Assembly (NCBI GenBank): GCA_023105745.1
Contig: JALGQZ010000014.1
Coordinates: 4,621,888 to 4,685,887, forward strand
Direction: 5' to 3'
Origin: Austropuccinia psidii
Lineage: Eukaryota; Basidiomycota; Pucciniomycetes; Pucciniales; Sphaerophragmiaceae
DNA: 64,000 nt
Shown here piece after piece: positions 3,307 to 60,609 of this stretch. Numbering within the stretch: position 1 is the first letter of the stretch; each line of letters starts with the position of its first letter. The notes beneath the pieces were generated by a model. It was not told the DNA's origin, searched no databases, and was given only the letters and a program-made list of their open reading frames with translations. A program made the position numbers and the translations under genes.

Positions 3307-4191
3307 ATCAGTGTTTGCAAGCAGTCAAAAACTTTATGTTCTTAGGGTATTTACCTTTTACTGTGCCTTGTACAAATTTGCTATCTGCTGATTTGGGTAG
3401 TTTGCCTTTGGAGGTTACAACTGGGTTAATAATTGTAATTTTTCCTGTACAAGTGGTTAAGGTTGGTTTACCTTGTATTGATGCAGAGTTTTGTGGTTTT
3501 CTACTCCTCTGAGTGGCTATTGGAGTCCACTTCTTGGCTGTGATGAGACCTTCACTGTGCCTCTTTCCTTTGCTCTTGCTGCCCTCTGGTTCTGAGGGTG
3601 TCACTGGTGTGTTGGCCTGTGACTGGGTCTCAAGTGGGATGTAATTCTCTTCCACTGAATCAAGGCAGTAAAAAGAGGGCTTATGTCAGTCAAGACTTCT
3701 CAAAAGATGCTGGTTTTGCATGTCTAAGATTGGCCTCTGTGCTTGTATGTTACTACAATATGCCCTTTATAATGAAAGTGTAATTGAATCAACAATTCCA
3801 CGTCAGAATTACAGCTTTTGGTACCCTGTCACACTATTTGTGTGCCAGTATCCCACAGATACACTTGTGGTTTTCAAGTGTAATCTGAATAAGTGGCTCT
3901 GTATAAGTGTAATTGAGTCAACATTACACTTAACCACGCCTGAACTGATGTTTTTTCAGTCAGAGGTGTCCTTATTCAATCAAGAATACAGGACTTATTG
4001 ATGGCTTATGTGTTTTTATATGTAAACATGCCAAAAATAAAGGTTCCAGTGAGTATTAACCTTGTGGTAAGTACTCTTATAATATGAATAAAAAAGTAAA
4101 ATATATACAAGATATATATTTTAGAAGAAAATACGCCTAAAAAAATATAAAACAATTGTCAGAAGATAGAAAATAAGAGAAAAAACTTACT
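2719..4191 (-). pseudogene. Element A spliced accessory gene, broken
   Basis: Three-exon accessory gene seen in all family 1 copies. Exon 0 ends at 4191 with A, followed by GTAAGT. Exon 1 is 3654-3355 and begins TG, so splicing would form the start codon. Intron 2 is 3354-3287 (68 nt) and contains the gag-pol ATG. Exon 2 begins at 3286 in the frame overlapping gag. The same one-base deletion near 3020 breaks this frame too, and a TAG at 2719-2721 replaces a CAG codon of element D. Function unknown. It is included because it shows that the split-start layout predates the decay of this copy. Confidence 0.6.
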
Positions 4192-4218
4192 TATAAGGTC
4201 CAAAAAAGATTAAAACAT

Positions 4219-4231
4219 GGCCAGGCCCCCA
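4219..4231 (-). other. Element A primer binding site
   Basis: On the minus strand the tract TGGGGGCCTGGCC begins three bases after the LTR end. The same position in C and D is identical, and element E has TGGGGGCCCAGCC. It begins with TGG, as expected for pairing with a tRNA CCA end. I could not assign the tRNA. Confidence 0.7.
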
Positions 4232-4234
4232 AAA

Positions 4235-5656
4235 TGTCAGGATGAAACTATGATAAAGGTGTATATAGGCTCAATACAACCTTAACTATGTTTGTGACAT
4301 GGTAAAAATAGTTGAAAAAGATTTATAAGGGTTTAAAGATAATGAAATTTAATATTAAAAGGGCTTTACTATATAAGATATAGTGGTGGTGAGCGCTGTT
4401 GAAAGCCCTGGGTGCAGCTTTATCTGTTGGGTTACAATAATAAAAGACTACAATAATTAACTTTATAATTATACCTGATTATTAAACAAGAGTAAAACTG
4501 TTTTTGACAGTTTACTACGTAGGCTATTCAAGAGCAGGATGAGGAGACGATTCTGGCTGTGAAAAGCCTCCTTTTTATCCTGAAATGTGGTGGAAAGGGT
4601 GCTAGACCTTTCCACGTAAAGGAAGTGAAGATTCTTTCACTCTCTAGTACTGGCTTGTGGTTTGCAAACAGCCTGTATAGCCTGTTTTGGGCTCAGATGT
4701 GGTTTTGAAACCACATCTGGGCATTTTTCACCAATACAGGGTGAAAATTTTCATCTGGGGACCTCACAGCCTGATACTTACGTGTATGATGCCTAGAATG
4801 CTGTACAGAAACTGTATGGGACCCCAGTATTGACTGACATATGAGGTATTGAAGTGAAAACAAGCTTCTTTGTCTATTTGACACCTCATATTCATGGTTA
4901 TGGGATATTATCCCATGGTAAAGCTGTATATGACAGCAGGTGGGAATCTGACCTTAAAACAGCCATAGCTTTGTCAATTCTTCAAATATGAACCTCAAAA
5001 TTTGCTCGGTGTGTAGCCCCGGATGTGCCCTACACAATGGTACCTCATTTCATATGGGTATCGTTAATTATGGCAAAGTTATCCCATGTAAAAGAATTTT
5101 GTACATTTTCATGGTATAGGCAAAAAGCTGTATTGAGCTTATTTTCCCCATACCTTTTGTTCTAGTTGAGCTATGGGGAAATGGATGACACCATCAGATA
5201 GCCCTGATTGTGCTCTTTCCAAAAAGACCCCACTTCAAGTATCTCACACTAAAACTTTAGAAGTTAGATGAGAGGTGAATGTTTTGTTCACCCTTATTTG
5301 GCCTGAAATTGACCATAACTCCAGTAATATTGGTGCTAGCTCAGTTTGGCTGGTACCATTGGATAGCCCTGGCTTCGAGCTTAATTTTTAGTACCCATTT
5401 GATGGGTTAAGCGTCTCCTTCTAGATTTTATTTGAGAGGTGAAAATTAAGGTTTATGCTCAGCAATAACTTTGTTATTTCTTGTCCTATGGTGATGGGAC
5501 TTATATTTTCAGAAATAGGTGAGTTTCCTCTTTAATTTGATACCTTTTGAGCTGATTTGGCTCAGCTCCATGTTTTGGTGGTATCTTGGATATACCATTG
5601 GTTTATGGTATTTTGGCTGTCATGCTTGTGCTCTGGGTTTGAGTCACAGGCTGACA
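4235..5656 (-). repeat. Element A 5' LTR (1422 bp)
   Basis: Bounded by TGTCAG and CTGACA (perfect 6-bp terminal inverted repeat). It aligns end to end with the LTRs of C (29520-30952, 37773-39202) and D (57528-58947). The 3655-4190 stretch inside the element is the long leader intron before exon 1 and holds no other gene. Confidence 0.93.
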
Positions 5657-8600
5657 CCTGAAGACTCACCAATATCACCTACACCTGGTCCTAGATCAAC
5701 CTCCACTCCAGTCACAGAACCAAGAACTCAAAATATTCCCAGGATAGTGTTTGTCACTACACCTAATAACCCAAGTCCATTACAGGAGAAAGCTCCAAGA
5801 CAAGAAAGACCTGTGGTTAAGATTAAAGCAAAAGATTACAATATAAATCTTGATGGAGAAGAAGTAGAAAAATTTATCAAGAAAGTGGAAAGAATAGCTC
5901 AAATTGAAGGAGCAACAGATGAAGACCTAGTAATGTAAATGGCATTTTGGTCAACAAACCAAAAGGTGAGTGATGCAATTGAAGCTATGCCAGGTTATGA
6001 AGAAGCAAATTGGACACAGCTCAAGAAAGATCTTATAACAAAATGGGGAAGAGTTGAACCTGAAAGAAGATACAGAAAAGACTCACTAATGAAGCTTTTT
6101 TCTGAAACTCAAGAAGATGGAGGAATTGGTAGTCTATCACAATATAAGAAATTTATGGGAGAATATGAACCTATTGTTACTTATTTGTTAAGATACAGGT
6201 ATATTCCTCAAGATAACATGTTCCATGAAGATTTATTTGACTGTCTTTCAGCTGATATTAAAGGAGCCATAAGTAAGGAATTGATCAAAGATAATGTCAT
6301 GGTTAGAGCAGAAGATCAAGGATACCTTATACCACCTATGAAGATTCTCAAGAAGTACATTGAACAAGAATTGGAAGCCAGAATATTAGTAAACAAAATA
6401 TTCTCATCATCAAGAGATACAGGAAGGAATTTTACTGAAAATAAAAGGAAAGATCATTTCAAGGGAGAGGCTTTCCCAGGAATGAATGAAGCCTTTAATA
6501 AAATAAAGGAAATTACTGAATCCCTCAAAGAACAAAAACTGGAAACTAGAAAGGAGTCACAAGTGGAAAATGAAGATCTTAAGAAATTTATGACTCAGCT
6601 GGAAGAATTGAAAAATCTATCAAAACCTCAAATGGGAGGGGCTACCAATAACCAACTCAATAATCAACAGTTCAAACCAAGAAATGATTTACCTCCATTC
6701 TCACAAAGGCATGTTCCTTATGCACCAGAACCAAACATACCAAAGCCTTATGTCAAATGTTATTACTGTCTTGAGGAGGGACATTCAGTGAATAGATGCA
6801 GCTACCTCTTTGAAGATAAAAATAAGAAATGGGCCAGCAGACAAGGAGGTGGATTTTTATTTCCCAATTGGCAAAGAGTACCAACTGATGGTAAAATAGC
6901 ACCAAAAAAGTTAGTGGAAGAATTTGCAAAAGAGAAAAAAGAACTTATAAAGAAAATAAGATAAGATGAAGCTAAAGAAGAACTACCCAAACCTAATCCA
7001 ATGAACATAATACAATTGAAGAAAGATGATAGTGCAACTGCTATAGCAAAAGTTGAAAACTGGGGAAGCTGGCAGCCACCAACTATTTCATCAGCCAATT
7101 AGCCACCTTTAAATAATTATGGATTAAGAAATACTAAAGAAAGAAACTCAAGAGCAGAAAATACCAATCAAGATGCTCTAAGATCACATTCAAAAGTGAA
7201 AACACCAATAAAAAAGACCAAATATACCTGGAGCTTATATTGAAGATGAGCAAAAGGAAGAAGAGAAAACAATTGTTCCAACTAAATATAAGAAGCCTCA
7301 AATGGTGCAAAATGAAAATAATATACCTTCACAGGAACCTAAAATTGATCAACCTTAAAATACTCAAGAACCAATCAAGAAATTCAATGAAAGGAAAATA
7401 ATAAAAGAGGAGAAATTAGATATCCAAGAAATTATGGCACAAATTATCAAAAAGCTATTGGATCAGAAAATAAATCTTACCTTGGAACAAATTTTAGTCA
7501 TGTCACCAAATTTTTCAATCAATTAAAGAACCTTTCATAGGAAGAGAAAAAATCTATTAACTCAATTGATACAAAAGAAATTCAAACCAAACTCATAAAT
7601 CATCATTTGGGTAATTATGAACAGCCAAAATTACATTATACCTGTCCATTGGGGTTTATGCAAGTATATTTGGGGGAAGAAGGACATGTAATAATGGCAT
7701 TAGTTGATACAGGATCAGAATTGAATATAATACCAGAAGATTCAGCAATCAAAGCAGGACTTACCACAAGATGCCTCAACATGAATTCAAGGGGAATTGA
7801 TGGGCATTGTACCTCAAGAGTTGGATTAGCAGAATTTACCCCAATCACTTTAGTCACTGGGGAAGAAAGAAATATACATCTTTTTGTAGCAAGAGGAGCA
7901 GTTCACACAGTATTGGGAAGGCCTTTCCTTGCAGATAATAACATAAGATTAGACTTTTCTCAACAGAAAGGCGGAATATTCAGTTCTATAGAGCCAGATG
8001 GAAGAAGACTTTGCTTACCAATTTGTTCACCACATAAAGTAGGATGGATAGAAGACCCACCAGCAGGAATGGAAACATGTGCAGTTTCTAAATTGGAATA
8101 TTGGCAAGAATTACCAAAAGAGAATGAATTAAGCCCCAAAAAACAAGAAAATTTTGAGGAAATTTCCCAAAAAGTACATGATAGTGAAGAAGTGAAGGAT
8201 TTCAAAGGCAAAGTGAAAATTCATGAGGAATTAGCTCAAATTAATACAGAAGATTTCAATTTAAAGCTTAAAGAAGAAAACTCTCCAGGAATTTTAGCCT
8301 CAAGAAAAGAAGATGGAAATACTTGTAGCCAAATTGCTTAAGCCATTAAAAGCTATAATCTCAAGAATACTGAAGACATCAAAAGAAAAACATTAACAAA
8401 GCTTATCTCACCTATTGAAGCTTTGAAGTCCCTTTCAAAGGGAATATTCAAGAATAATTGGAAGTCAAGTATCAAGCCAGTTGTAACAATAGTTAGTGTC
8501 AGCTCATAATCTAAAGGTTTAAGTTCTCAAATTGATAAATCAGCACTCAACTTATTAAAAGAAGTTTCCCTCAAATATAACATTTCCACAAGAAGGACAT

Positions 8601-9997
8601 TACTACTCAAAACCACCTCAAAATTCAGGAGGAAAATATTGATATAATTCCAAAATCTGAAGAATCTGAAAGTTTAAATGAAATTTTGAATGATACTATG
8701 AAAAGTTAACACCGTAAAAAAATAATTATCCTCAAGAAATTTCAGCATCTAATAAAGGATGCAGTAAGATTGATAAGAAACCTAATTTTCATAAAAATGA
8801 ATCAGTTCTACCTCAAGAGTTAATTGACCCATTACTCAGATTCAATCAAGTATCTATGACAGGAGCTACCCACAAAAAGAAATTTAATAATTCTGGGAAG
8901 TCACCAATCTAAATTTTGGAAATATTGATCCTAGAATTCTGATGGAAGGAATTATTGGAGAAAATAAATCATTATCTAATATAGTAAATATTGATCCAAG
9001 ACTTGTCAAAGAACAATTAGACTTAACAAGAATAGTTGAAAACCCCATAGGGGAAAATGACCAAAATCAAGTAAAAGATATACCTTTTTGTATAGAAGAA
9101 GAACCTTTAAAAATGGAATTCCCTTGTTTTAAGTCAACAAGAAAAGATATAGAATGCAGTTTCAGTACAGTTCAGAATATAAATGAAGCTAAAGTTGATG
9201 ATTCAATAAATGAAAATTTGATCAATTCACTGTCTCAATTGACAATTAAGAAGGAATTAAATCAACAAAAAGCCTTACCTCCTGAATACAAATCCTCTGG
9301 GGAAGCTCATAATAACTTTTATATTAGGAAAATAATTAATTCAACATTCAAAAAACTTCAGTCTGTCAGGAACCATGCCAGAAATGAATACATAAAAAAT
9401 ACAATACACTCACCAAATATTTTAAAAAAACATCTTTCTGGATCAGAATATGAGAATGAAGCAGGATTATTTTGTCAAATGGAAATACAAGAAGAAATTG
9501 AAGATGAACATAAATTTATACTTACTGAAGAAGAATACCCTTGGGAAGGTTATACAAATTGGCAACCTCTTAGGAATGCCAACCTTGAGGATCACAATAA
9601 AAATAATTCTAGGGACAACTTTGAATGTGAAAACCAAAATGTCAAGTGGCTGGAAGATATTAGTGCCCCAAAGAAGAGTGAATCAAATAAAATCAAAGAT
9701 AAAAGTAGCAAAAAGAAGAAGAAGACTAAGGAAGAAAAGGAATATTTTTGGATTACTCAGAATAAAAAGATATGCCCAAGCTTGCAGGCCCATTTGGAAA
9801 GGCAATATAAGACCTCAACAAAAAAAGAGGATTGGACAGAAAATAATGATAGAAGTGGAAAACTTATACAGGATTACCTTGATAAGAATGAAGATTTTCA
9901 AGATCAATATCTCAATGAAGAAAGAAGAAATGAGCTTACAGCTAAGAAGGCCAAATTCAAGAAATGTCTTGACAATAAATTTTCATACTATCAATGA
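5657..9997 (+). pseudogene. Element B Gag-protease polyprotein with long charged C-terminus, broken
   Basis: Most of this region reads in one frame as a single ancestral ORF of about 1450 codons. The TAA at 5936-5938 lies directly before an in-frame ATG and fits a mutated CAA. Further stops are at 6962, 7097, 8339 and about 8507, and frame disturbances lie around 7225-7600. Order of parts: gag capsid-like region (5939-6500), coiled-coil-like lysine/glutamate-rich stretch (6500-6640), CCHC zinc knuckle (6758-6799), linker, retropepsin with Asp-Thr-Gly at 7706-7714 and a GRPFLADNNIRL-type C-terminal segment (7915-7955). A highly charged region (8342-9997) ends in a lysine-rich tract (about 9670-9760). 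This last region matches no domain I know and occupies the place where RT would begin. Retroviral-type Gag-Pro role is established for the family; the role of the C-terminal part is unknown. Confidence 0.82.
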
Positions 9998-15479: not shown

Positions 15480-15832
15480 TCCACAACATGTAATCCCTCA
15501 TGGAAATACAATGGTGCAGTTTATTCCACATTTTGTTTCATTGGTTTCTGAGATAAATAATACTTTGTGTCTTTTTATGCCATTTTTACTTATTACTCAT
15601 TGAGTATTGACTTTACAGATATTCCATAAAAATTATATATTTGTGTTTTATGATGAATAATCTAATAGTGTAATTTATTTCACATGTTTACTCATAAGTT
15701 CCTAAGTTAATTCATATTTTATGCCTTTTTATGGTATTTCTACTTATTTGATGATGATTATTTGAAATAATAATTATTGTAAAGTTTTTTAGTGACCTTT
15801 TTGGATATGTGGTCATATCTCAAAGGCTCACA
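15480..15832 (-). repeat. LTR fragment of the ~1.93-kb old LTR family
   Basis: Similar on the same strand to the last 350 bp of the solo LTR at 41406-43340, and in reverse to the start of the LTR at 28461. It ends AAGGCTCACA, matching the reversed TGTGAGCC start of this LTR group. The rest of the LTR is missing or too diverged. 15833-16110 shows nothing recognisable. Confidence 0.65.
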
Positions 15833-16110: not shown

Positions 16111-16115
16111 GTCAT
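16111..16115. other. Target-site duplication, left side of element E
   Basis: GTCAT directly before the 5' LTR; the identical GTCAT follows the 3' LTR at 26233-26237. Five bases is the usual size for Ty3/gypsy integration. Confidence 0.95.
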
Positions 16116-17955
16116 TGTGAGCCTTAGAGGTAATTTCATATACCCAAAAGACCACAAATATAAAAAATAACATATTAATATAAATAAAATAAATTTATTT
16201 ATATTATTAAAATAAAAATAAAAAAAATATAAATATAAAATCATATTAAAAATAAAAAATTAATTATAATTTAAAAATAAAATTACTTTAAATTTTGTAA
16301 ATATAAAATTACATTTATACTTGAAAAATTTAAGTAAAAATGAAATTTTAACAAAATTGTGAAAAAATAAACAAATTTGGAAAAAAGTTAAATAAAATTT
16401 ATTATAACTTTTTATCCAATAAATAAACATATAAATTTTATTTCACCATTGGATTCCTCATAAAAAATCAGGTGGGGTCACCTCTGGGTGAAATTTTTGT
16501 AACTCAACTCTAAATAAGCTTAAATTAAGTTTTTAGTATTTTCAATACAAAAGTTGAAAATCCTCAAAACCTTAATTTAATTCACACCACATGTGGTGTT
16601 AACCATCAATTTTTGTGTTAAAATTGAGGTGTTGTGTTTAGTTTAGAAGTTATGAGGAATTAAAGTATTTTCAATTGAATTCAATTGAAATGTCAAAATG
16701 TGCGCGTGTATTACATAAGTGAACTTTGATTTACATATGAGGTGTCAATTATTACTGTATTGTACTGTACAATTGAATTGAATTACATATGTAAATTATA
16801 AGTATAATACATGATGAGGAATTAAAGGAAAAATAAATTGGAAAGATTAAATTTGGGGGGGAAAAGGAACTCCAGCTCTAAGGGGGAGCTAGACCCCCAA
16901 AATCCTTGCTGACAGGCGTGGGATGTCAAAATTCACGCAAAAGTTCATCACTTTTGGCCTGGAATTGAGTTACAGGGTCTGTGGACTCAATTGATGATGA
17001 GGTTTTGATACCAACTGGGGTAGTTTTAGCTGTTGCCAAGAAGGTAAAACTACCCTTAAGATAAAACAATCATAATAAAAACAGTTTTAACTGGTTTCTA
17101 CGCCTCTGACACACATTCTGACGTGTTTTGAAGGCTCTAGGCCTGGTATTGCTATAGTAATGGCTGATTTAAGGGTCTAAAATGGCTAAAAATGGCTAAA
17201 AATGGCTTAAACCAGCCCTTTTTGGTCTAAACCAGGGTTCAATGATGCCATAATTGGCTTTTCTGTTGTCAGACTGTTTTTCACGACTGACAAGAGTCAA
17301 TTTTACTTTTGGAGTAAGAGAATTGATGGCTATAAAAGAATGTCTTCTTTGCCCCACTTTTCTCTTCATGTTAGAATCTTTTCCTTTTATTAATTAGTTT
17401 AAAACTGTTAAACCAATCAATCAAAGATTCCAACCACCACTTTTAAATCATTTTAATCCTTTTAACCACGTGAAAAAATCATTATAATCATTGTTTGTAA
17501 CTCTTATAATCATTTTTACCCCTGAACCACCCCAAAAGTGAATTAAAGCATCTTTCATCACTGTTAACTTTGTCACTTTGTTTCCAAATTCACTCTGGTC
17601 ACTTTTGGGCGTGTTTTCTCTTTAATATTCTTTTTAAAGACTTTGTTCTTTAATTAATTGCTTGCAGTTCTTTGCTCAATTAATTCCAATTGAAATTGCT
17701 CTTGAAGAAATTTCTTTTGTAGCCTTAAAATATCTCTTGTAGAGTATTTTTTGGATAAATCTTTATTGTTGGTAAAACAATAAATTTTTATAATATTATT
17801 GTTTTATACTAATAAAGTTATAAACAATAAAATTGGCGTGTTTTCTCTTAAAAATAATATTTCATACTATTTTTAATTGATTTTTACCTTATACAAATTT
17901 TGAGGACAGGAAAAGTACTTGATTTTTAATCAAAGTTTCATATCCACACCTTACA
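16116..17955 (+). repeat. Element E 5' LTR (1840 bp)
   Basis: TGTGAGCC start, CCTTACA end. Notable contents: an ATGGCTAAAA tandem triplet (about 17180-17210), a TATA box (17331), two GGCGTGTTTT motifs (17608, 17835) and an inverted repeat pairing AAAACAATAA with TTATTGTTTT (about 17770-17808). The region from 16130 to 16480 is almost pure AT. Confidence 0.96.
17331..17338 (+). promoter_or_regulatory. TATA box in element E LTR
   Basis: TATAAAAG in the only moderately GC-rich part of the LTR, followed by a pyrimidine-rich run (TCTTCTTTGCCCCAC) suited to transcription start. The same copy is at 25608-25615 in the 3' LTR. Confidence 0.6.
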
Positions 17956-17957
17956 TT

Positions 17958-17970
17958 TGGGGGCCCAGCC
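17958..17970 (+). other. Element E primer binding site
   Basis: TGGGGGCCCAGCC two bases after the LTR end. It differs from the family 1 site only near its 3' part. tRNA partner not identified. Confidence 0.7.
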
Positions 17971-18119
17971 GTGATATTTTACCTGTGACATATTTTTTAC
18001 TCTTTTTAAATCTTTTTTTCTTATATTGAAAAATTTAAAAACATATAAAAAATACTTATAATCCAAAAAAAAAAAAAAAAAAAAAAAAATCCTTAAAAAA
18101 TAATTTTTTTCATATTATA

Positions 18120-19108
18120 AGTGAGGCTTATATTTTTATTTCTTCTTTGAAATAACCTTTTTTTACTTAATTAATTGACTTTTTCATTAATTTTAGTGTC
18201 TGACAACGTGGTAAGACAAGAAAACATTGAAACAGCCTCAACAGTAACCAGCATTATCCCTGCCAGTACTGTTCATTCTGATCATAATAGTACTGTTATT
18301 GTGACTCAAAATAATCAACCTGAACCAATATCTTCTGAATTAATTAACTTGGATATAAGTAATACACTTCAGAAAGCCAAAAATTTGGCCAATAGTAAGT
18401 TTTTGACGTAAAAATACTATTTTAAGCCTTTTTTAACCATAATTATGCCTTCAACCAGGTCAGGAGCCAGCTACAACCCCTCAAGCAGCTCCCAAAAAGG
18501 TAATAGACGTGATTATGGCAGAGGCCAACCAGGTACAGAAGGAAAAGGGTCAGTTGATGACTTCCAAACAACTAAAATGGGTCATTCTGAAGCTGATAAT
18601 ACCATTTTACCTTCAAAAAGAGCTGACACCGCCACAACAAGCCTCTGTGGACATATACAAAGCCAGCCACAGTGCATACAACAATGCACTCCAATTCAAG
18701 GAGTACCAGATCCTTGCAGACCTGTGGAAGAATTGCATGAATTCTTACCTGACAGTAAGAAAATTCTTGGGCCATCCCAACACTTGCAAATTGCTCAATG
18801 GATGGCATCCATTGATGGAGAAGAAAAACATGATGCTTTTGACACTAGAATGGAGGAAAAACAACCCTCCACCAGCCAAACCAGTGCCAAAAACAGCCCC
18901 AGTGGCCAGCAGCAGCAATTCCAACGTGAAAAAGCAGCCACAAACTCCAAACAAGGGCAAAGGGAAGGCACCAGCCCCAAAACCTTACAGCCAGGGCTAC
19001 AGAATCCCAAAGATTCAGCAGGATGCCATGGAAAATGTATTTCAGATTGCCAGAACCATGATGGAATTACAGAAGAAGGAGGAAGCCAGATTAAGGTTCC
19101 AGAAATGA
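18120..19108 (+). CDS. Element E spliced accessory protein (predicted 282 aa)
   Basis: Three-exon model. Exon 0 ends with A at 18120, before GTGAGG. Intron 1 is 18121-18196 (ends ATTTTAG). Exon 1 is 18197-18394 and begins TG, so splicing forms the ATG (M-S-D-N). Intron 2 is 18395-18458 (GTAAGT...ACCAG). Exon 2 is 18459-19108, in the +1 frame relative to gag-pol. The reading frame is open across both junctions. Exon 1 is Thr/Ser/Asn-rich; exon 2 has a Trp/Cys/Leu-rich segment ([18 protein letters not shown]), a Pro/Lys-rich linker ([11 protein letters not shown]) and a C-terminal Lys/Glu helix. The order and spacing match the accessory protein of family 1 (58992-60609). Intron 2 contains the gag-pol start codon. 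There is no ATG for this frame in unspliced RNA near exon 1. Function unknown; no known domain. Splicing is inferred, not shown. Confidence 0.65.
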
Positions 19109-22100
19109 TTTCTGACATATTTGATTCCATCCCAGAGTTGTATAATGCTATAAATGACGTGAAAAAACATCTTTCTGATAAAAATGACACCATTTGTAAC
19201 AACATTAAAACAAACAACCTGAGTCTGTGCCAAATTAATGAAACACTTATGTGTTTTGAAAAAGTTTTGAGAACAATTAAAAATTCCAATAATGATAATT
19301 CTTCTAACAATAAAATAAATGAACAATCTGCCATTATTAAAGAATTAACAGATAAATATTCTAAATTCAATATTGATGACATAATTGAAACAAGAATTAA
19401 ACAAGCCATAAATATTATCAAGACAGATAACAAGAAAGTCCTTGATGACATTTCAAATTCATTTACTGAAGTAAAGACATATACCATTGCCTTGAAAAAG
19501 TGTTTTGATGCTTCACAAGAAGAAGTATCAAAATTATCAATGAAATTGAATCAAGTCACTGCTGATAATACAAGACAGACAGAGTTATGGCAAGAACTTA
19601 CACATAAAGAAGACATGTATAAAATTGAAGTAATAAATTTAATACAAAGCTTCCAACATGAATACAGAAATTCCCAAAGGTGTAGCAACAGTAAAATGAA
19701 TGACATTGAACAATTACTGAACACCTTACCAAGAATGTCTACACCTCTAAATCAAAATGAGGGCACAAGAATTTCAAATCCACAAGTATTGGATCCTGAT
19801 AATTCACAATTAAAAAATGAATTATCCACTTCTTTTCATAACTTGGAACCATCAATGGGCCAAGCACTCTTGAAAGAAGTTCCAAAACTTAAAGAATGGC
19901 CTCACTTCAGTGGTGAAGGAGAGTATGACCATATGGAATTCATTAGAGGTATTGACATGATCAAAGAGGATTTTGAATTACCAGACAGATTGGTAACAGC
20001 CAGGTTTAACACCTTGTTTACCAGATCAGCTCACAGATGGTACATCAAAATAAGACAAGCACATGGACACCAGAGTTGGACTTGGTGGAAAACCCAAATC
20101 ATCAACAAATGGGCAAATGATGCTTGGAGGTTTAAAGTTGAAACAGCCTTTGAATCTGCCAAATTTAATGCTGATAAAGACAAAGCTTTACCATGGTTTT
20201 GCCAACAAAAGGACAGATTAACAGCATTATATCCTGACATGTCAGAATTTATGATCCATAGAAAAATTCTGAGACAATGTGGAGGTGACTTAGAGCATGC
20301 TGTCAAAAGCAGGACTACTGAACAATCTTCAGCAGAGGATATTATCAATATACTAGAAGAAGTAACCACCAGAACCAAAATTGGTTCTAGTAGGGTGAAT
20401 CTTAAAACAAGGTTTAATACACCTTGGAAAGATTCTGTGGACAAAAACCCCAAAGAAAATTCTAGTAATATTAAATATAAATCTGCAGATACAGTCAGAA
20501 AATGCCATATTTGCCAAAGCACCACCCATTTAGCCAATACATGTCCAAAAAGGGGGAAAATCAATGAAATTGACATTGAAAAAGAACCAGATGTTGAAAA
20601 AGAAGACATAATTGAAGACAATTCAGATGATAAGTCATCCATATTCTCTGAATCTTCAAAAGATATAGAAAATATCAATGCCACTTTTGACATCATGGAA
20701 TCTTATTCCCACTTACCACAATTGAGCAATGGTCAAGTTGATTTATCAAAAGTTCAAGATGCACAACTTATGAAGACAAAACCAAACAGAGGAAAAGGTT
20801 ATACAGCTGGTAACTCCTGTATAACAGAAGTGGTGATTGATAACAAACCCACCAAACTTTTGCTTGACCCAGGAGCCTTCTGCTCTTGTGTTGGAAAATC
20901 TTTTCTTAAGACTTGTGTACCAAATTTTGAAGACCAATTGTTACCAATTGATGGTATAAAATTCAACAGTGCAAGTAACCCAATGAAAGCATTAGGAATC
21001 TTTGAGACCAATGTCATATTCCCACACATAAATGGGAATTTAAGGATCACAGTTGAATTTGTTGTTATGGAAAATTGCTCTAGTACCCATTTTATATTGG
21101 GAAATGACTATTTAATCATGTATGGAATAGATTTACATAATAACAAAGACAGATACTTTACAATTGGAGACAATAAGCGCCAGAAATTTGCCTTTTTACC
21201 CTTTAAAAGACAAATTACAGTAAACAAAGTATCACCAGTCAACTTAGAGTTAGAGAAATTCAAGTCTGAACAGTTAAGTGAGGCTGAAATAAGCCTTCAT
21301 CTGACTGATAAGCAAGAAAATGAACTTTCTTCCCTTTTGTATGACCACAGAGGAGCATTTGCTACAGACAAAGAACCCCTGGGAGCAATTATTGGTCATG
21401 AAGTTGACATCATTCTTAACATTGAGAGACCTTATCCACCACTCTTAAGAAGACCTGCTTATCCAGCAAGTCCAAAATCAAGAGAAGCTCTAGAAATTCA
21501 TATCAAAGAACTTCTAGACCTTGGTGTAATAAGAAAAGTAGGCCACAATGAGGAAGTAGAAATAACTACACCAGTCATAGTGGCGTGGCATAATGGAAAA
21601 TCCAGAATGGTTGGGGACTTTAGAGCTCTGAACACTTACACTGTTCCAGACAGATACCCAATACCAAAAATCCAAATTGCCCTTACTCAAATATCTCAAG
21701 CAGTGTATATAACCACTATGGATGCCCTTAAAGGATTCCATCAAAATGTAGTAACACCAAGAGCAAGAAAATATTTGAGAATTATTGTTCATTGTGGAGT
21801 GTATGAATACTTAAGGATGCCCTTTGGTATCAAAAATGCACCTTCACACTTCCAAAGAATGATGAATGAAATCTTCCCTGAAGAACTCTCAGAGGGATGG
21901 TTAATCATTTACATTGATGACATTATTATCTGTTCAAAGACTTGGGAGGAGCACATGTACAGATTATCAAGAGTTTTGACAAAAATCCAATCAGTAAACA
22001 TGAAAATCTCCTTGAAGAAATGTCATTTTGGATTTAAAGAACTTAAGGCACTAGGACATGTTGTATCTGGTTTGTCCCTTGGAATTGATAAAAACAAAGT

Positions 22101-24369
22101 TGCAGCAGTATTGTTAAAACCCATGCCTCAGAATAAGAAGGAAATTCAGTCATTCTTAGGTTTTGCAGGATATTACAGGCAGCACATTAAAGACTTTGCA
22201 TCCATAGCAAGACCACTTTATAAGTTGTGTGACAAAGACACAGTATTTGAGATGACTGTTGACAGAGTCAAAGCTTTTGAGTCTCTAAGAGAAGCATTGA
22301 CCACTGCTCCACTCTTACTGATGCCAGACTTTAAATTGCCTTTCAAACTGTATATTGATGCATCAGGGGATGGACTAGGTGCTGCACTTCACCAAGTTCA
22401 GATCATAAATGACAAACCTGTAGAAGGACCAATATGTTTCATATCCAGGCAAATCAAACCAACTGAAGCCAGATATGGAGCAAGTCAAATGGAATGTCTA
22501 TGCCTTGTCTGGGCCTTAGAGAAATTGAACTATTTCTTAGAGGGATGTGTTTTTGAAGTAATAACAGATTGTACAGCTGTGAAATCACTTTTGAACATGA
22601 AAACACCTAACAGACACATGCTCAGATGGCAAATAGCCATACAAGAATACAGAGGCAATATGACTATTGTTCATAAGGATGGGAATATTCATAAGAATGC
22701 AGATGGACTAAGCAGATGGCCATTACCAAATAACATTGATAATCCTGCTTATGTTCCAGAAGAAGCTTCACCACAAATTCCAATAGAAGGAATAAGTGTT
22801 ACAGACTTGAACACCACCTTCTTTGAAGAAGTCAGAAATACTTACACTCAAGATAAGAATTGTAGCATCTTATGCCAATTACTTAACAAAGACTGTAAAG
22901 ACAACTCTCTAATACATGCCTTGGATGAAGTATGGAGAAAATCTTATAATGAAGGAAGATTTCACCTACTGGATGGTATAATTTACCACAGAACCAAGCA
23001 CACATGTGTCATGACAGTTGTAGACAGGTCATTAATCAATCTTGTACTTAAAGAATGCCATGATAGTCCCTTTTCAGGACATCTTTCTGAAGACAGAACA
23101 AGAGAGAAAGTGAAGACCTGCATATGGTGGCCAATGTGGCAAAAAGATGTTGCAGAATATTGCAAAACCTGTGACAGATGCCAAAAGGCAAATAAATCCA
23201 CTGGCAAAAGACTTGGAAATATGATGAAAATCCAAGAACCAAACAGACCTTGGGAAATTGTCCATATGGATTGGGTAACTGGCCTACCACCAGGAGGTGA
23301 CAGGAGCTATAATGCTTGCCTAGTAATTGTGGACAGATTCAGTAAAACTCCAATCTTTTTACCATGTCACAAAGATGATACAGCCATGGATACAGCTCTT
23401 CTGATATGGAATAGAGTAGTGTCATGGACTGGGATATTTACAAATATCATCAGTGATAGAGATCCCAAATTCACTTCAGCTCTATGGACAAATCTTCACC
23501 AATTATTTGGCACAAAACTGTCTTTCTCTACAGCCTACCACCCACAAACTGATGGTCTGGCTGAAAGAATGATCCAAACCTTAGAGGACATGGTGAGAAG
23601 ATTTTGTGCATATGGCCTTGAATTCAAAGATTGTGATGGATTTACCCATTATTGGTGTACTCTGTTACCAGCACTGGAATTAGCATATAAAACATCAATC
23701 CATTCCAGTACCAATCAGACTCCTGCTATTCTAGAAAAAGGATGGAACCCCAAGTTACCCCAAGATTCCTTGAGGAAAGACTTAATTGAAATACATCCCA
23801 CAGCTGCTAGCTTCAAAGGAATGCTAGACAAAGCTAGAAAGCATGCAGTGAGATGCATGGAGGACTCTTTTGCATATGCTAAAGACAAATGGGATAAATC
23901 TCATGCAACTCCAGATTTCAAAGTGGGGGACCTAGTTCTTGTATCCACCACTAACTTCAATAACATCAAAGGATGTAAAAAGTTAAAAGACTCCTTTGCA
24001 GGACCTTTTGTGATTAAGGCCCTCCATGGAGAAAATGCTGTTGAAGTAGAGTTATCTGAAGAACTTAGCAATAAGCACCCTACATTTCCAGTAAGCTTGA
24101 TAAAGCCATACAAATCTAGTGATGCTGAGAAATTTCCCTTGAGGAATAAGATTCCCCAAGTTATACCTCCTATTGAGACATCTGGTACTAAGAAAATAAC
24201 CAAAGTTCTTAAAGAAAGGAAATTAAGAACCAAGAAAGTAAGGGAATACCTTGTTAGGTACAGTGACCCAACTTGTGAAGATGAATGGTTAGAACAGAAA
24301 GATATACCAGAAGCCACCAAACTCCTGAGGAGATTCAGACACACTAGAAACACCAATATTACAAAGTAA
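18445..24369 (+). CDS. Element E Gag-Pol polyprotein (1974 aa)
   Basis: Complete Ty3/gypsy Gag-PR-RT-RH-IN polyprotein. Approximate residues: low-complexity N-terminus overlapping the accessory frame (1-220); coiled-coil-like helices (260-410); capsid-type gag region with [10 protein letters not shown] (488-620); CCHC zinc knuckle C687/C690/H695/C700; protease 800-900; RT from about 1000 with YIDD at 1156-1159; RNase H with YIDA at 1303; integrase H2C2 zinc finger (H1539 to C1573 onward); DDE core D1609, D1671, E1707 (35 residues between the last two); GPF motif at 1853; and a chromo-like C-terminus about 1895-1945 without the usual aromatic cage. The protease motif is D808-P-G instead of Asp-Ser/Thr-Gly, which is odd for an otherwise intact element. 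The true start may be downstream of the 18445 ATG, since the first 220 residues are low complexity. It ends 23 bases before the 3' LTR. Confidence 0.95.
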
Positions 24370-24380
24370 TATTCTTTTTT

Positions 24381-24392
24381 AGGGGGAGGGAA
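24381..24392 (+). other. Element E polypurine tract
   Basis: AGGGGGAGGGAA abutting the 3' LTR. The family 1 counterpart is on the minus strand at 30953-30964. Confidence 0.9.
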
Positions 24393-26232
24393 TGTGAGCC
24401 TTAGAGGTAATTTCATATACCCAAAAGACCACAAATATAAAAAATAACATATTAATATAAATAAAATAAATTTATTTATATTATTAAAATAAAAATAAAA
24501 AAAATATAAATATAAAATCATATTAAAAATAAAAAATTAATTATAATTTAAAAATAAAATTACTTTAAATTTTGTAAATATAAAATTACATTTATACTTG
24601 AAAAATTTAAGTAAAAATGAAATTTTAACAAAATTGTGAAAAAATAAACAAATTTGGAAAAAAGTTAAATAAAATTTATTATAACTTTTTATCCAATAAA
24701 TAAACATATAAATTTTATTTCACCATTGGATTCCTCATAAAAAATCAGGTGGGGTCACCTCTGGGTGAAATTTTTGTAACTCAACTCTAAATAAGCTTAA
24801 ATTAAGTTTTTAGTATTTTCAATACAAAAGTTGAAAATCCTCAAAACCTTAATTTAATTCACACCACATGTGGTGTTAACCATCAATTTTTGTGTTAAAA
24901 TTGAGGTGTTGTGTTTAGTTTAGAAGTTATGAGGAATTAAAGTATTTTCAATTGAATTCAATTGAAATGTCAAAATGTGCGCGTGTATTACATAAGTGAA
25001 CTTTGATTTACATATGAGGTGTCAATTATTACTGTATTGTACTGTACAATTGAATTGAATTACATATGTAAATTATAAGTATAATACATGATGAGGAATT
25101 AAAGGAAAAATAAATTGGAAAGATTAAATTTGGGGGGGAAAAGGAACTCCAGCTCTAAGGGGGAGCTAGACCCCCAAAATCCTTGCTGACAGGCGTGGGA
25201 TGTCAAAATTCACGCAAAAGTTCATCACTTTTGGCCTGGAATTGAGTTACAGGGTCTGTGGACTCAATTGATGATGAGGTTTTGATACCAACTGGGGTAG
25301 TTTTAGCTGTTGCCAAGAAGGTAAAACTACCCTTAAGATAAAACAATCATAATAAAAACAGTTTTAACTGGTTTCTACGCCTCTGACACACATTCTGACG
25401 TGTTTTGAAGGCTCTAGGCCTGGTATTGCTATAGTAATGGCTGATTTAAGGGTCTAAAATGGCTAAAAATGGCTAAAAATGGCTTAAACCAGCCCTTTTT
25501 GGTCTAAACCAGGGTTCAATGATGCCATAATTGGCTTTTCTGTTGTCAGACTGTTTTTCACGACTGACAAGAGTCAATTTTACTTTTGGAGTAAGAGAAT
25601 TGATGGCTATAAAAGAATGTCTTCTTTGCCCCACTTTTCTCTTCATGTTAGAATCTTTTCCTTTTATTAATTAGTTTAAAACTGTTAAACCAATCAATCA
25701 AAGATTCCAACCACCACTTTTATATCATTTTAATCCTTTTAACCACGTGAAAAAATCATTATAATCATTGTTTGTAACTCTTATAATCATTTTTACCCCT
25801 GAACCACCCCAAAAGTGAATTAAAGCATCTTTCATCACTGTTAACTTTGTCACTTTGTTTCCAAATTCACTCTGGTCACTTTTGGGCGTGTTTTCTCTTT
25901 AATATTCTTTTTAAAGACTTTGTTCTTTAATTAATTGCTTGCAGTTCTTTGCTCAATTAATTCCAATTGAAATTGCTCTTGAAGAAATTTCTTTTGTAGC
26001 CTTAAAATATCTCTTGTAGAGTATTTTTTGGATAAATCTTTATTGTTGGTAAAACAATAAATTTTTATAATATTATTGTTTTATACTAATAAAGTTATAA
26101 ACAATAAAATTGGCGTGTTTTCTCTTAAAAATAATATTTCATACTATTTTTAATTGATTTTTACCTTATACAAATTTTGAGGACAGGAAAAGTACTTGAT
26201 TTTTAATCAAAGTTTCATATCCACACCTTACA
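24393..26232 (+). repeat. Element E 3' LTR (1840 bp)
   Basis: Same length as the 5' LTR; the only difference I found is T at 25723 against A at 17446. It is followed by the GTCAT duplication (26233-26237). Confidence 0.96.
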
Positions 26233-26322
26233 GTCATAAAACCATCATAATTGATGAATTATTTGAAATTGGAAAATGAATAATAGAAAATGAAAAAATC
26301 AACTAAGAACAAATTAATATAA

Positions 26323-28460: not shown

Positions 28461-29519
28461 TGATTTGAGCATTTCAGATATGACCACATGTCCAAACGGT
28501 TCACAAGAAAACCTTAAAATAATCATTCTTTTAAATAATTATCTTAAAATAAGTAAAAATACCATAAAAAGGCATAAATGCTGAATTGACTTAGAATATG
28601 ATGAAAAGACATGTGAAATGAATTATAACATTAGATTATTCATGTTGAAACACACATATATTATCTTTATGGCACATCTATAACATCAATACTCAATGAG
28701 TAATAAGAAAAATGTCATAAAAAGACACAAAGTCATATTTATCACACAAACCAATGGAACAAAATTTGAAATAAATTGCACCATTGGTTTCCCAATGGAA
28801 TATTCCACATAAATAAACTTTAAATCACTTCTCTAAAGTTAATAATCAAGGAATTAAGCTGAATATATGCACTTTTATGATTAGTGCATACATTCATGGT
28901 TTTTAGCTAATATCTCCTGAAATAAACATGATAGAGAGTTAAACCAAAGGTAAATTTAACACCTAATTAATGTTTAAATACAGAGATGAACTTTATTTGA
29001 CATGTTACAAAACAGGTTATAACTTGTAGGGGTTTATTGAACAAAATTGCTAGAGCTGTTGACCACTTTGTTGTGAAAGTGGTCCAAACTTAGAATAAAG
29101 TGGATATCTAGGCTCTACTAGCTCATAAGTGAATAATTCTGTATTTTGTATCATAATATTCAACGTACAACCCCCTGAAATCATGGCTTGAAGTTCAAAA
29201 TAATACGTTTTGACAGAAAAGATGGGTTACAAGAAAAAATCATCAATAATAGATCTTTGGTGATGTAATGAAATGCTCTTGGAAGCTTAATAAGGTCATA
29301 GCACACTATTAGAACTAACTCTCTAAATGGCTGTAGCATGTATAAACTAAAAGTCATTAATCATCAAAGCTTAAGCTTAAAATAAATCATTTATGATTAC
29401 TCACTGTAATCTTATTTTAAGCTTAATAGTCATATGAGTGATATAACTGGTTAATACTATTATATTATTATTAATACTAATGAAATACCCAAATTTAAGT
29501 ATTTTTCCAAGCCTATGAT
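28461..29519 (+). repeat. Left part of an old ~1.92-kb LTR, split by element C
   Basis: Reverse-complement match of the solo LTR at 41406-43340 over its whole length up to the ATGAT target site. The start is eroded (TGATTTGAG instead of TGTGAACC), so the left end is approximate. The LTR continues at 39208. Confidence 0.8.
29515..29519. other. Target-site duplication, left side of element C
   Basis: ATGAT, repeated at 39203-39207 just after the other LTR of element C. Confidence 0.95.
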
Positions 29520-30952
29520 TGTCAGGATGATACTATGATAAAGGTATAACTAGGCTAATTACAACTTTAACTGTGTATGTGACACAGCAGAAAATGATTA
29601 AAAAAGATTTATAAAGGTTTTATAATAAGATAAAAGGGTTCTACTATTGAGAAATAGTGGTGGTGAGCGCTATTGAGAACCCTGGGTGCAGGCTTTATCT
29701 GTTGGATTACAATAATAAAGTCTACAATAATTAAAGATTATAATTATACCTGATTATTTAACCAAGAGTAAAACTGTTTTTGACAGTTTACTACGTAGGT
29801 TATTCAAGAGCAGGATGAGGAAAGGTTTTTGGCTGTGAAAAGCCCTCCTTTTATCCTGAAATTGAGGTGGAAAGGCTGCTAGACCTTTCCACGTAGAGGA
29901 AGTGAAGATTTTTCACTCTCTATGACAGGCTTGTGGTTTGCAAACAGCCTGTATACCCTGTATTGGGCTCAGATGTGGTTTTGAAACCACATCTGGGCAG
30001 TTTTCACCAATACAGGGTGAAAATTTTCATCTGGGGACCTCACAGCCTGATTCTGACGTGTATGACGCATAGAATGCTGTACAGAAACTGTATGGGACCC
30101 CAGTATTGACTGACATATGGGGTATTGAAGTAAAAACATTCTTCTTCGTCTATTTGACACCTCATATTCATGGTTATGGGATATTATCCCATGGTAAGGC
30201 TGTATCTGACAGCAGGTGGGATTTTGACCTTAAAATGGTCATAACTCTGTCGGTTTTTGAGATATCAAGCTCAAAGTTGGTTCATTGAATAGCTCTGTAT
30301 GGGCTCTACACAATGGTACCCAACTTGACATGGCTATAATTAAATATGACAAAGTTATCCCATGTACAAGTATTTTTGTACATTGGCGTGGTCTGGTCAA
30401 AAGCTGTATTAAGCTTGTTTGGCCAATAACTTCTGTTGTAGTTGAGTTATGAGGAAATGGATGGCACCATCAGATAGCCCTGATTGTGCTCTTTCCAAAA
30501 ATACCCCACTTCAGGTATCTCACACTAAAGCTGTAAAAGCTAGATGAGAGGTGAATGTTTTGTTCACCCTTATTTGGTCTGAATTTGACCATAACTCAAG
30601 TAATACTTGTGCTAGCTCAGTTTGGCTGGTACCATTGGATAGCCCTGGCTTAGAGCTTCATTCTGAATACCCATTTGATGGGGTTAAGCCTCTCCTTCTA
30701 GATTTTAGATGAGAGGTGAAAATTATTAAGGTTTATGCTCAGCAATAACTTTGAGCAGGAATAACTTTGTTATTTCTTGTCCTATGGTGATGGGACTTAT
30801 ATTTTCAGGAAGAGGTGAGTTTCCTCTTTATTTTCATACCTTTTGAGCTAATTTGGCTCAGCTCCATGTTTTGGTGGTATTTTGGCTATACCATTGGTTT
30901 ATGGTATTTTGGCTGTCATGCTTGTGCTCTGGTTTTGAGTCACAGGCTGACA
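29520..30952 (-). repeat. Element C 3' LTR (1433 bp)
   Basis: TGTCAG...CTGACA. It is preceded on the minus strand by a polypurine tract (30953-30968, TTTTAGAGGGAGGGTA read on the minus strand). Confidence 0.95.
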
Positions 30953-30976
30953 TACCCTCCCTCTAAAAAAGGCTCA

Positions 30977-36831: not shown

Positions 36832-37728
36832 ATCAGTGTTTGCAAGCAGTGAAAAACTCTATGTTCTTAGGGTATTTACCTTTGACTGTGCCTTGTACAA
36901 ATTTGTTATCTGCTGATTTGGGCAGTTTGCCTTTGGAGGTTACAACTGGGTTAATAATTGTAATCTTCCCTGTACAAGTGGTTAAGGTTGGTTTACCTTG
37001 TATTGAAGCAGAGTTTTGTGGTTTCCTACTCCTCTGAGTGGCTATTGGTGTCCACTTCTTGGCTGTAATGAGGCCTTCACTAAGCCTTTTTCCTTTACCC
37101 TCGCTGCCCTCTGGTTCTGAGGGTGTCACTGGTGTGTTGGCCTGTGACTGGGTTTCAAGTGGGATGTAGTTTTCTTCCACTGAATCAAAACAGGAAAAAG
37201 AGGGCTTATGTCAGTTAAGACTTCTTAAAAGGCTGGTTTTGCACGTCTAAGAATGGCCTCTGGGCTTGTATATCATTACAGTATGCCCTTGTATAATGAC
37301 AGTGTAATTGAATTAACAATTTCACGTCAGAATTACAGCTTTTGGTACCCTGTCACACTGTTTGTGTGCCAGTATCCCACAGATACACTTGTGGTTTTCA
37401 AGTGTATTCTGTACAAGTGGTTCTGTATAAGTGTTATTGAGTTAACAATACACTTAATCCACGCCTCAACTGATGGTTTTTCAGTCAGAGGTGTCCTTAT
37501 TCAGTCAAGAATACAGGACTTATTGATGGCTTATGTGTTTTTATATACAAAACACGCCAAAAATAATCAAATTCAGTGGGTATTAGCCACGTGAATAATA
37601 CTCTTATAATATGAGTATGTATATAAAAAGGATAAATATATATAATATATATATTTAAATAAAGAAATTACGCCTAAAAAAAGATAAAACACTGGTTAAT
37701 AAGTCATAAAAAGAGAAAAAGACTTACT
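36112..37728 (-). pseudogene. Element C spliced accessory gene, broken
   Basis: Same layout as D. Exon 0 ends with A at 37728 before GTAAGT; intron 1 is 37727-37180; exon 1 is 37179-36880 and starts TG; intron 2 is 36879-36812 (68 nt, contains the gag-pol ATG at 36831); exon 2 starts at 36811. A TAA at 36585 replaces the CAA codon of D, and the indel near 36240 shifts the last part. Splice signals are fully conserved although the coding part is dead. Confidence 0.65.
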
Positions 37729-37756
37729 TATAAGGTCCAAAAAGGTTTTAAAACAT

Positions 37757-37769
37757 GGCCAGGCCCCCA
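37757..37769 (-). other. Element C primer binding site
   Basis: TGGGGGCCTGGCC on the minus strand, three bases inside the 5' LTR. Confidence 0.7.
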
Positions 37770-58991: not shown

Positions 58992-60609
58992 AGTAAGTTT
59001 TTTCTCTTTTTTATCATTTATTGACACCTGTTTTTTATTTTTAGGCGTCATTTTCTTTTGAAAAATATATTTTATATATATTCTTCTTTTAAAATTTAAT
59101 AATACTCATATTTTTAAAGAGTATTTGTCTAGTGGCTAATAACCACAAGACCAGTATTTTTGGCGTGTTTTGCATATAAAAACACTTTTAAGCCATTTAT
59201 ACAGTCTCAATTCTTAATTGAATTAAGACAGCTCATACTGATAAACCAACAGTTGAGGCGTGTTTGGGCACATTGTTAACTCAATTGCCCTGTAATACAC
59301 CATTTTTGACAGATTATACTTGCTAATAACAAGTATTCTGTAAGATATTGGTATACAAACAGTATACCAATAATCAATAAGCTGTATTTCTGACGTGGAA
59401 TTGTTAATTCAATTACACTGTCACTATACAAGGGCATACTGTAGTGACATACAAGCCCAGAGGCCATTCTTAGACGTGCAAAACCAGCCTTGTAAGAAGT
59501 CTTAACTGACATAAGCCCTCTTTTTCCTGCTTTGATTCAGTGGAAGAAAACTTCATACCACTTGAGACCCAGTCACAGGCCAACATACCAGTGACACCCT
59601 CAGAACCAGAGGGCAGCAAGGGCAAAGGAAAAAGGCTTAGTGAAGGCCTCATCACAGCCAAAAAGTGGACACCAATAGCCACTCAGAGGAGTAGAAAACC
59701 ACGAAACTCTGCTTCAATACAAGGTAAACCAACCTTAACCACTTGTGCAGGGAAGATTACAATTATTAACCCAGTTGTAACCTCCAAAGGCAAACTGCCC
59801 AAATCAGCAGATAGCAAATTTGTACAAGGCACAGTCAAAGGTAAATACCCTAAGAACATAAAGTTTTTGACTGCTTGCAAACACTGATATGTCCCCTGCA
59901 TACCTCAGAGACCTTGGCTTCCAAAGGAACCAGCCAGAGGATAGAGCAGGAATGTCTAGAACCAGAAGACCTGAAAGAAGACACATTGGACACAGTGGTG
60001 GATGGCAAAACAATGAGGGAGATAATATCAACCTTGCCATTCACACTCCAATTCAACAGAAACCTCAAACCAGAGGACTGGAAAGATATGGATCAAGTTC
60101 TTCAAATCCACCAACTCCTCAAAGATTTGTTTCAATGGAGTATGGACAACAAGAGGTTCAACCTAGCAACTCACTGGGCAGAACTGGGATCAAGTTGCCA
60201 GAAGATCTGTCTCAAAGAGATAGACTTCAAAGACCTTATGGTAATCACCAAGGGTTGGAATCCTACCAGGCAGCACAGACTCCTGGAGGCAAGGGCACAG
60301 AGGATAAGGGAGAATCAAGCCACTATCCAAGCTATAGAAGAACAGTTAACCCAGACAGGGCCTACTCAGATTCCTTCAGGTTCACAAGGAGCATGCCAAA
60401 TCAGCTCTCCAGTGGCTTCACACCATTCAGAAACCAGCAGATCAGTGGCCAAGAGTCACCATTCTTCACAATTCCAGGAAGTTTCCAGGAGAAGACAAGG
60501 CAACAAGGGCAAAAACAAAGCCTCCTTCAACCAGAGGAGGAAGGAGTCAGACCTCATGATCCAGAAGCTGTTAGATTTGGTAAAAGAAGTACACAAGAAC
60601 CAGAAGTAG
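58992..60609 (+). CDS. Element D spliced accessory protein (predicted 333 aa), intact
   Basis: Exon 0 ends with A at 58992 before GTAAGT. Intron 1 is 58993-59540 (548 nt, ends TTTGATTCAG). Exon 1 is 59541-59840 and begins TG, so the start codon A|TG is made by splicing (M-E-E-N). Intron 2 is 59841-59908 (GTAAAT...CTCAG, 68 nt). Exon 2 is 59909-60609, in the +1 frame relative to gag-pol, ending TAG. The frame is continuous across both joins. Exon 1 is Lys/Thr/Ser-rich and basic. Exon 2 has a helical region ([20 protein letters not shown]), a conserved Cys/Trp segment ([17 protein letters not shown]), a Ser/His-rich linker, a KGKNKA basic patch and a C-terminal helix. It resembles the E accessory protein in order and in several residues. 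No known domain; an RNA-binding or accessory role would be a guess. Confidence 0.68.

Follow-up and report, generated by a model that had tools for sequence, protein, structure and literature searches.

A spliced accessory gene overlapping gag in a Ty3/gypsy element of Austropuccinia psidii: evidence from intron-less genomic copies and codon-position patterns

A Ty3/gypsy-type element of Austropuccinia psidii, element E (16116–26232), carries a second gene, here named acc, that overlies its leader and gag. Very probably, one LTR transcript of this element gives rise to at least two RNAs, i.e. an RNA that serves as both Gag-Pol message and genome, and a spliced RNA that encodes an accessory protein (Acc). 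RNAs without intron 1 and RNAs without introns 1–3 exist or existed, and patterns of substitution between copies indicate that the acc frame is under coding selection. Coordinates refer to the whole 64,000-nucleotide stretch of DNA that was analysed (hereafter the window).

Element E and the structure of acc

Element E is young and complete. Its plus-strand LTRs (5′ LTR 16116..17955, 1840 bp; 3′ LTR 24393..26232) differ by one mismatch in a blastn self-comparison, a GTCAT target-site duplication can be read in its flanks (left 16111..16115, right 26233–26237), and a purine-rich tract (AGGGGGAGGGAA, 24381–24392, plus strand) lies directly 5′ of the 3′ LTR. The gag-pol gene (18445..24369, plus strand) is a single open frame of 1974 codons with reverse transcriptase (RT), RNase H, and integrase zinc-binding and core domains, which Pfam places in the order RVT_1 (amino acids 1050–1206), RT_RNaseH (1295–1402), H2C2 (1526–1584) and rve (1600–1700). 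The near-identical LTR pair, the GTCAT duplication and the RT–RNase H–integrase order agree with the Ty3/gypsy identity given in a preliminary description of this DNA. The region of E from pol to the 3′ LTR shows no env. A GGGGCCYRGCC-type stretch, a candidate primer binding site, is present in E, in F3 (a copy of a second family, F, in the window) and in the sampled loci L019, L013b and L021, and is absent from L020 and L025.

The window has a GC content of 35.3% and belongs to a genome of 1,015,390,075 bases in 84 contigs; passages of a published account describe A. psidii as having a gigabase genome with a mean GC content of 33.8% and >90% transposable elements, mostly Gypsy (PMC8063080). 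Several other features were observed around E or elsewhere in the window. An inverted repeat of ∼330 bp, 82–86% complementary, flanks the element (15501–15830 and 28466–28794). Plus-strand frames of 341, 266 and 368 aa at 5939–9997 resemble by eye the gag and protease of another retroelement type, and stop-to-stop frames of 186 and 208 aa at 54315–55390 (plus strand) overlap in different registers and are perhaps another overlapping pair. When prokaryote contigs were scanned, the one match was to pol and is uninformative for acc: L001 (NZ_BMQF01000089.1), a 3.7-kb contig filed as Streptomyces fumigatiscleroticus, carries a gypsy pol that is 63% identical to that of E in the best segment and is probably fungal contamination of a bacterial assembly. 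Three scans of viral contigs for relatives confirmed none.

All parts of acc lie on the plus strand. Exon 0 ends with an A (18120..18120), which is followed by intron 1 (18121..18196, 76 nt, GTGAGG...TTTTAG), and exon 1 (18197..18394) begins with TG and has no in-frame Met codon. Intron 2 (18395..18458, 64 nt, GTAAGT...CAACCAG) holds the gag-pol ATG at 18445, exon 2 (18459..18548) is read in the +1 frame over gag, intron 3 (18549..18620, 72 nt, GTCAGT...TTCAAAAAG) is in frame, and exon 3 (18621..19108) ends at the stop codon TGA (19106–19108). These limits follow from the sequence together with the spliced copies described below. The split start codon, the coordinates of introns 1 and 2, and the fit of the reading phase at both predicted joins had been proposed in the preliminary description and stand as given; both introns have GT–AG borders. 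The product does not: exon 2 had been described as 216 codons open in the +1 frame, which is true of the DNA, but 18549–18620 is absent from both fully spliced copies, and recognition of this third in-frame intron, which the earlier model lacked, reduces the predicted protein from 282 to 258 aa.

Two details of the junctions between acc and gag were also recorded. At 19105–19108 (ATGA), the acc stop TGA shares bases with an ATG in the gag frame; a role for this overlap as a stop–restart signal was dropped, since family F has no counterpart. In E, L021 and L030 (ATGCCTTCAACCAG, ATGGTGCATACCAG and ATGAATCCTACTAG), intron 2 takes its 3′ splice site from the Gag start itself, ATG-NNN-NNN-ACY-AG, and the M-x-x-T-R start of Gag may be maintained partly by splicing.

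The leader of the unspliced E RNA, counted from the LTR edge to the gag ATG (17956..18444, plus strand, 489 nt), contains no ATG, compared with 6.4 ± 2.1 in 500 dinucleotide shuffles; all leader counts given here start at the LTR edge and leave out the part of the leader within the LTR. The F3 leader likewise has no ATG in 941 nt (12.3 in shuffles), and the decayed leaders of F1 and F2 have four and three (12.9 and 13.7 in shuffles). All eight E copies fetched, E included, combine an ATG-free leader with an intact 282-codon frame in the two-intron form. Against this, L019, a relative of F with a stop inside its acc frame, has at least three leader ATGs. Two further observations concern the leader. 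An A-run of 25 at 18065–18089 measures ∼5–8 A in the other copies looked at and appears from this comparison to be a recent expansion in the E copy. The motif RCGTG, several times as GRCGTGTTT, recurs in the LTR and leader of E (16116–18444) and F3 (57518–59889), where eight of 13 and seven of 17 CpGs, respectively, lie within CGTG and CpG is otherwise depleted (13 vs 43 expected in E; 17 vs 83 expected in F3); it could be a transcription-factor or RNA site.

Genomic copies without introns and the third intron

A search of the whole genome for the 26-nt exon 0/exon 1 junction, with up to two mismatches, gave three matches (L035, L036 and L037), and the reversed pattern used as a control gave none. 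All three carry the join of 18120 to 18197, although the split codon of L036 has mutated to ATT. Intron 1 is absent from all three copies. Introns 2 and 3 are retained in L035. In L036 and L037, intron 1 is missing together with the 64 nt of intron 2 and another 72 nt that correspond to intron 3; loss of introns 1 and 2 with intron 3 kept is seen in none of the three. Over the aligned pieces, L036 is 84–91% and L037 95–99% identical to E. The intron 2 join is exact to the letter in L037; in L036 it rests on the 64-nt length of the gap, the bases after the join having changed.

Five-bp target-site duplications, with LTR edges, accompany L037 (AGGAA) and L035 (GAATC), which identifies these two as true insertions; the far end of L036, unlike the LTR edges of L037 and L035, was not found. 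LTR-linked copies of spliced RNA thus sit in the genome, and the three splices must therefore occur in nature. The earlier claim that splicing removes the Gag-Pol start is borne out by the loss of intron 2 from L036 and L037. Microhomology deletion was considered as another source of the intron losses and was rejected, since recombination between the AGTG repeats at 18120/18195 would leave an extra G, which is absent. The three junction copies compare with 1438 first-look candidates for the region, which suggests that spliced RNA is rarely copied or rarely made.

Intron 3 has further marks of an intron. The segment 18549–18620 fits GT–AG and amounts to 24 codons in frame; all four decayed E-like relatives have an acc-frame stop within it and none has a gag stop there. 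Differences between copies fall at acc codon positions 1/2/3 as 10/25/13 inside the segment, which is an excess at gag position 3 (P = 0.006), and as 64/69/140 outside it, an excess at acc position 3 (P = 8e-10), with L015 cut at acc position 600 for these counts; the two distributions differ (chi-square P = 5e-4). This shift implies that gag is read inside intron 3 and that acc is constrained in the exons, i.e. that both frames are used. Outside intron 3, L013, L011, L011b and L015 contain 0, 1, 3 and 6 stops in the acc frame and 1, 2, 0 and 6 in the gag frame, as expected in such old copies after copy death. A form of Acc that retains intron 3 is possible in E, whose own segment has no acc stop.

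Family F, other families and coding constraint

Family F has three copies in the window: F1 (1–5656, minus strand), F2 (29520–39202, minus strand) and F3 (from 57518, plus strand), which runs beyond the window end. As predicted from its sequence, F3 has an exon 0 ending with an A before GTAAGT (58992..58992, plus strand), an exon 1 that begins with TG after GATTCAG (59541..59840, plus strand), an intron 2 of 68 nt (59841..59908, plus strand, GTAAAT...ACCTCAG) that holds the gag ATG at 59889, and an exon 2 that runs to the stop (59909..60609, plus strand), for a predicted Acc of 333 aa. Its spliced frame is open for these 333 codons and its gag is open through the stretch read. The corresponding exon 1 lies at 36880..37179 (minus strand) in F2 and at 3355..3654 (minus strand) in F1, two decayed copies in which the splice sites are intact. 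The layout predicted for F thus repeats that of E: the start codon is split A|TG, intron 2 contains the gag ATG, and the overlapping exon is read in the corresponding frame, with matching phase. The leader donor TTAYAA|GTAAGT stands behind the A, the acceptor GATTCAG|TG GAA GAA sits in an upstream Met-less frame, and all four splice sites are conserved in F1, F2 and F3. Divergence of F1 or F2 from F3 is 21–23% in the leader between the splice sites, 4–6% in exon 1, 1.5–3% in intron 2 and 2.4–7.4% in the overlap.

Sampling of the genome covered 20 stretches of 10 kb at even spacing on contigs C1 and C2, plus five on C3–C7. Copies of acc occur there in elements like E, in elements like F and also in further families, with acc pieces 29–70% identical to E or F in L013 (4486–4931), L021, L020, L019 and L030. 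The Acc of E matches L013 (4486–4931), L021, L020 and L030 with best tblastn E-values from 5e-9 to 1e-21 (sampled 200 kb or 50 kb), which points to homology of Acc between E and families other than F. Between E and F, the local alignment score of Acc is 42, compared with a shuffle mean of 32.7 and maximum of 55, the BLASTP E-value is 1.4 and the hhalign probability is 1.8%. Four further sampled families show parts of the layout. TG directly follows the acceptor in E, F, L019, L013b and L021, whereas L030 has AG|CG (the A before the leader donor was checked in E and F). Intron 2 carries the gag ATG close to its end in E, F, L019, L021 and L030; in L013b, no position could be assigned to the gag ATG.

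Substitutions between copies indicate coding selection on acc. In exon 1, 13 of 19 substitutions between F1 and F3 are synonymous in the acc frame (P = 3e-4), as are six of 12 between F2 and F3 (P = 0.12). Over the overlap, F1 and F3 differ by 52 substitutions, 27 of them synonymous in acc (expected fraction 0.26, P = 6e-5) and 10 in gag, which is no excess; for F2 and F3 the figures are 10 of 17 in acc (P = 0.009) and three of 17 in gag. An excess of differences at acc position 3 is found in all eight pairs compared (E with L013, L011, L011b and L015; F3 with F1, F2, L025 and L019), each with a one-sided P < 0.05, although these P values are not independent because the pairs share E or F3. 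With CpG contexts removed, seven of the eight remain below 0.05 and F3/L019 reaches 0.052. Differences summed over seven pairs at acc positions 1/2/3 are 163/175/265 (E/L015 stands outside the sum and inside the eight). A ninth comparison, of L031 with F3, points weakly in the same direction (7/8/13 by acc position; 10 of 28 substitutions synonymous in acc vs seven of 28 in gag); the gag ATG of L031 was not located, and a gag reading from that copy is disregarded. In three pairs, Acc is also better conserved than Gag as protein, with identities (acc/gag) of.90/.83 for E/L011,.77/.70 for E/L011b and.49/.38 for F3/L019, in a comparison that leaves out F1, F2 and L013 because of frameshifts or a start offset.

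Where its sequence coincides with the acc exons, gag shows little constraint on its residues. In the control region 3′ of acc, where gag is read alone, E/L011 has a clear excess at gag position 3 (32/27/69) and four of the five pairs are flat; synonymous counts there are 21 of 62 for F1/F3, borderline at P = 0.049, and four of 15 for F2/F3, no excess. Gag thus looks weakly constrained in several comparisons, perhaps through partly dead copies. Given the acc residues, however, 7.35 (E) and 8.85 (F3) stops would be expected in the gag frame and none is seen in either (P ≤ 5e-5), which indicates that the gag frame is kept open. Given the gag residues, 1.88 acc-frame stops would be expected and none is seen (P = 0.07, alone not significant); the +1 frame of the next 648 gag-pol codons contains 42 stops. 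Codon-usage scores over the overlap did not separate the acc and gag frames. The claimed overlap of acc with gag is thus supported by both the intron-less copies and the codon-position patterns. The preliminary description had named lack of constraint on the overlapping frame across copies as an outcome that would speak against it, and the opposite was found: in the shared exons, acc is the more constrained frame.

Expression of element E, rival readings and known systems

The following scheme would account for these observations in E. In unspliced RNA the gag AUG at 18445 is the first AUG after the LTR, and scanning ribosomes would make Gag-Pol from an RNA that would double as the genome. Removal of intron 1 joins the A at 18120 to the TG at 18197 and so builds an AUG, which then is the first after the LTR; removal of intron 2 deletes the Gag-Pol AUG and would shift translation to the +1 frame; and removal of intron 3 cuts out 24 codons, for a predicted Acc of 258 aa. 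RNA that lacks intron 1 alone would lead to a 71-codon dead end, and a balance would presumably exist between spliced and unspliced RNAs.

Other readings of the gene structure fare poorly. That the open acc frame arose by chance and the intron-less copies by random deletion is extremely improbable: the openness of the frame given the gag residues is, at P = 0.07, compatible with chance, but the losses fit GT–AG at three places and are identical in two separate copies of different divergence, the extra G that deletion between the AGTG repeats would leave is missing, and the constraint tests on the acc frame contradict it. Acc might instead come mainly from unspliced RNA, with splicing incidental, if leaky scanning let ribosomes skip the gag ATG and initiate at an acc-frame ATG further in, so that exon 1 was left out. 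The overlap of unspliced E does contain such an ATG (VIMAEANQ). We regard this as very unlikely, since exon 1 of F is Met-less and under acc-frame selection (F1/F3, P = 3e-4), translation of unspliced RNA would meet the acc-frame stops of intron 3 in four of four relatives, and spliced copies exist. Also unlikely, if somewhat less so, is an extra product in which exon 1 is spliced to an acceptor close by (at 18464 in E; GAGCAG|GA in F) and continues in the gag frame, as a Gag with an altered N-terminus; suitable acceptors and phases are present in E and F, but the two copies that have lost intron 2 agree with a join at 18459.

The function of Acc is a separate question. Pfam found nothing above its cut-off in the acc frame. 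An AlphaFold model of the E protein, built from two aligned sequences on the 282-aa version and thus including 24 residues coded by intron 3, is all-helical, has a basic, disordered linker and ends in a long helix (mean pLDDT 61), and a Foldseek search with this weak model gave 96 matches at E ≤ 10 and none at E ≤ 0.001. A lysine/arginine-rich stretch is present in the E-type and F-type sequences that were read. By analogy with CERV, the accessory protein of the Caenorhabditis elegans Ty3/gypsy element Cer1, Acc could be a nuclear RNA-binding regulator through which intron-bearing genomic RNA leaves the nucleus or stays unspliced. We put this forward tentatively, as our preferred reading, because of the retained introns, the lysine/arginine-rich stretch and the CERV precedent. 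An alternative that keeps the same gene structure, in which Acc works with Gag as a structural component or in assembly, or else targets the host, falls short of an even chance and is about as likely as the CERV-like regulator. The predicted helical domain, basic disordered linker and long C-terminal helix, modelled at low confidence, would suit a Gag partner, and Pfam names no matrix domain in the E gag; against this, the modelled Acc RNA cannot make Gag, which would uncouple the amount of Acc from that of Gag, and the predicted fold has no match at E ≤ 0.001. Under the regulator reading, the splices both create the Acc start and remove the Gag start, and the two proteins could not come from one RNA.

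The closest known counterpart is CERV itself, an accessory protein that is made by splicing and without which unspliced RNA is not exported from the nucleus (PMC10309623). Cer1 is, as is proposed for E, an LTR element whose unspliced RNA serves gag-pol and whose spliced RNA, of five exons, serves an accessory protein, with one CERV exon read in a non-gag frame and a genome RNA that retains working splice sites (PMC10309623). The same passages indicate a difference: CERV exons 1–3 and 5 share the polyprotein frame and exon 4 alone departs from it (PMC10309623), whereas no codon of E acc is in the gag frame. In E, furthermore, one intron splits the start codon and another contains the Gag start, and this arrangement recurs, whole or in part, in several families of one fungal genome; the likeness drawn here is one of layout. 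Judged from the intron-less copies and the reading frames, acc shares with CERV-type genes an origin from spliced RNA and a frame that is partly not that of gag.

Rev-type regulators of complex retroviruses have a basic stretch and overlap other frames. They are made from fully spliced RNA and serve the export of unspliced RNA, according to passages of PMC10309623. Acc resembles them, by layout alone, as the product of a fully spliced RNA with a basic stretch and frame overlap, but E has no env between pol and the 3′ LTR and the position of acc differs. In the plant LTR elements BARE and one from Arabidopsis, splicing reportedly serves Gag expression itself and creates neither a new frame nor a new start codon. 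BARE is described as giving separate RNA pools from one element (PMC3735527), as is proposed for E, and splicing in the Arabidopsis element is on record too (PMC8892269). The additional ORFs of plant LTR retrotransposons resemble acc as extra conserved genes; in the passages concerned they have no known function, lie more often between pol and the 3′ LTR, and none overlaps gag in another frame (PMC7264820). As regards rust fungi, the word 'gag' does not occur in the main text of either of two transposon papers, as far as that text was available (PMC12210899, PMC8063080). A literature search over titles and abstract starts of open-licence papers found no such gene described in a fungal element among the matches listed. 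To our knowledge, fungal LTR retrotransposons are usually described as gag-pol alone.

The acc gene is an accessory gene that is spliced, overlaps gag and is under selection; it belongs to a high-copy element and has counterparts in further families. It also clearly exemplifies a start codon that splicing builds while shutting out the other protein. The integrated copies of spliced RNA form a fossil record of splicing that can be used without RNA data. Our more far-reaching proposal, offered with the same reserve as the regulator reading on which it depends, is that fungal Ty3/gypsy elements evolved a complex-retrovirus style of expression independently of retroviruses, in which splicing sorts genome and Gag-Pol messages from those of a regulator and this regulator in turn acts on the genomic RNA to control its export or its splicing. 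If true, the elements of a 1-Gb genome would carry a regulatory layer so far known from retroviruses and Cer1, and it becomes testable how intron-bearing retrotransposon RNA in fungi escapes splicing and nuclear retention.
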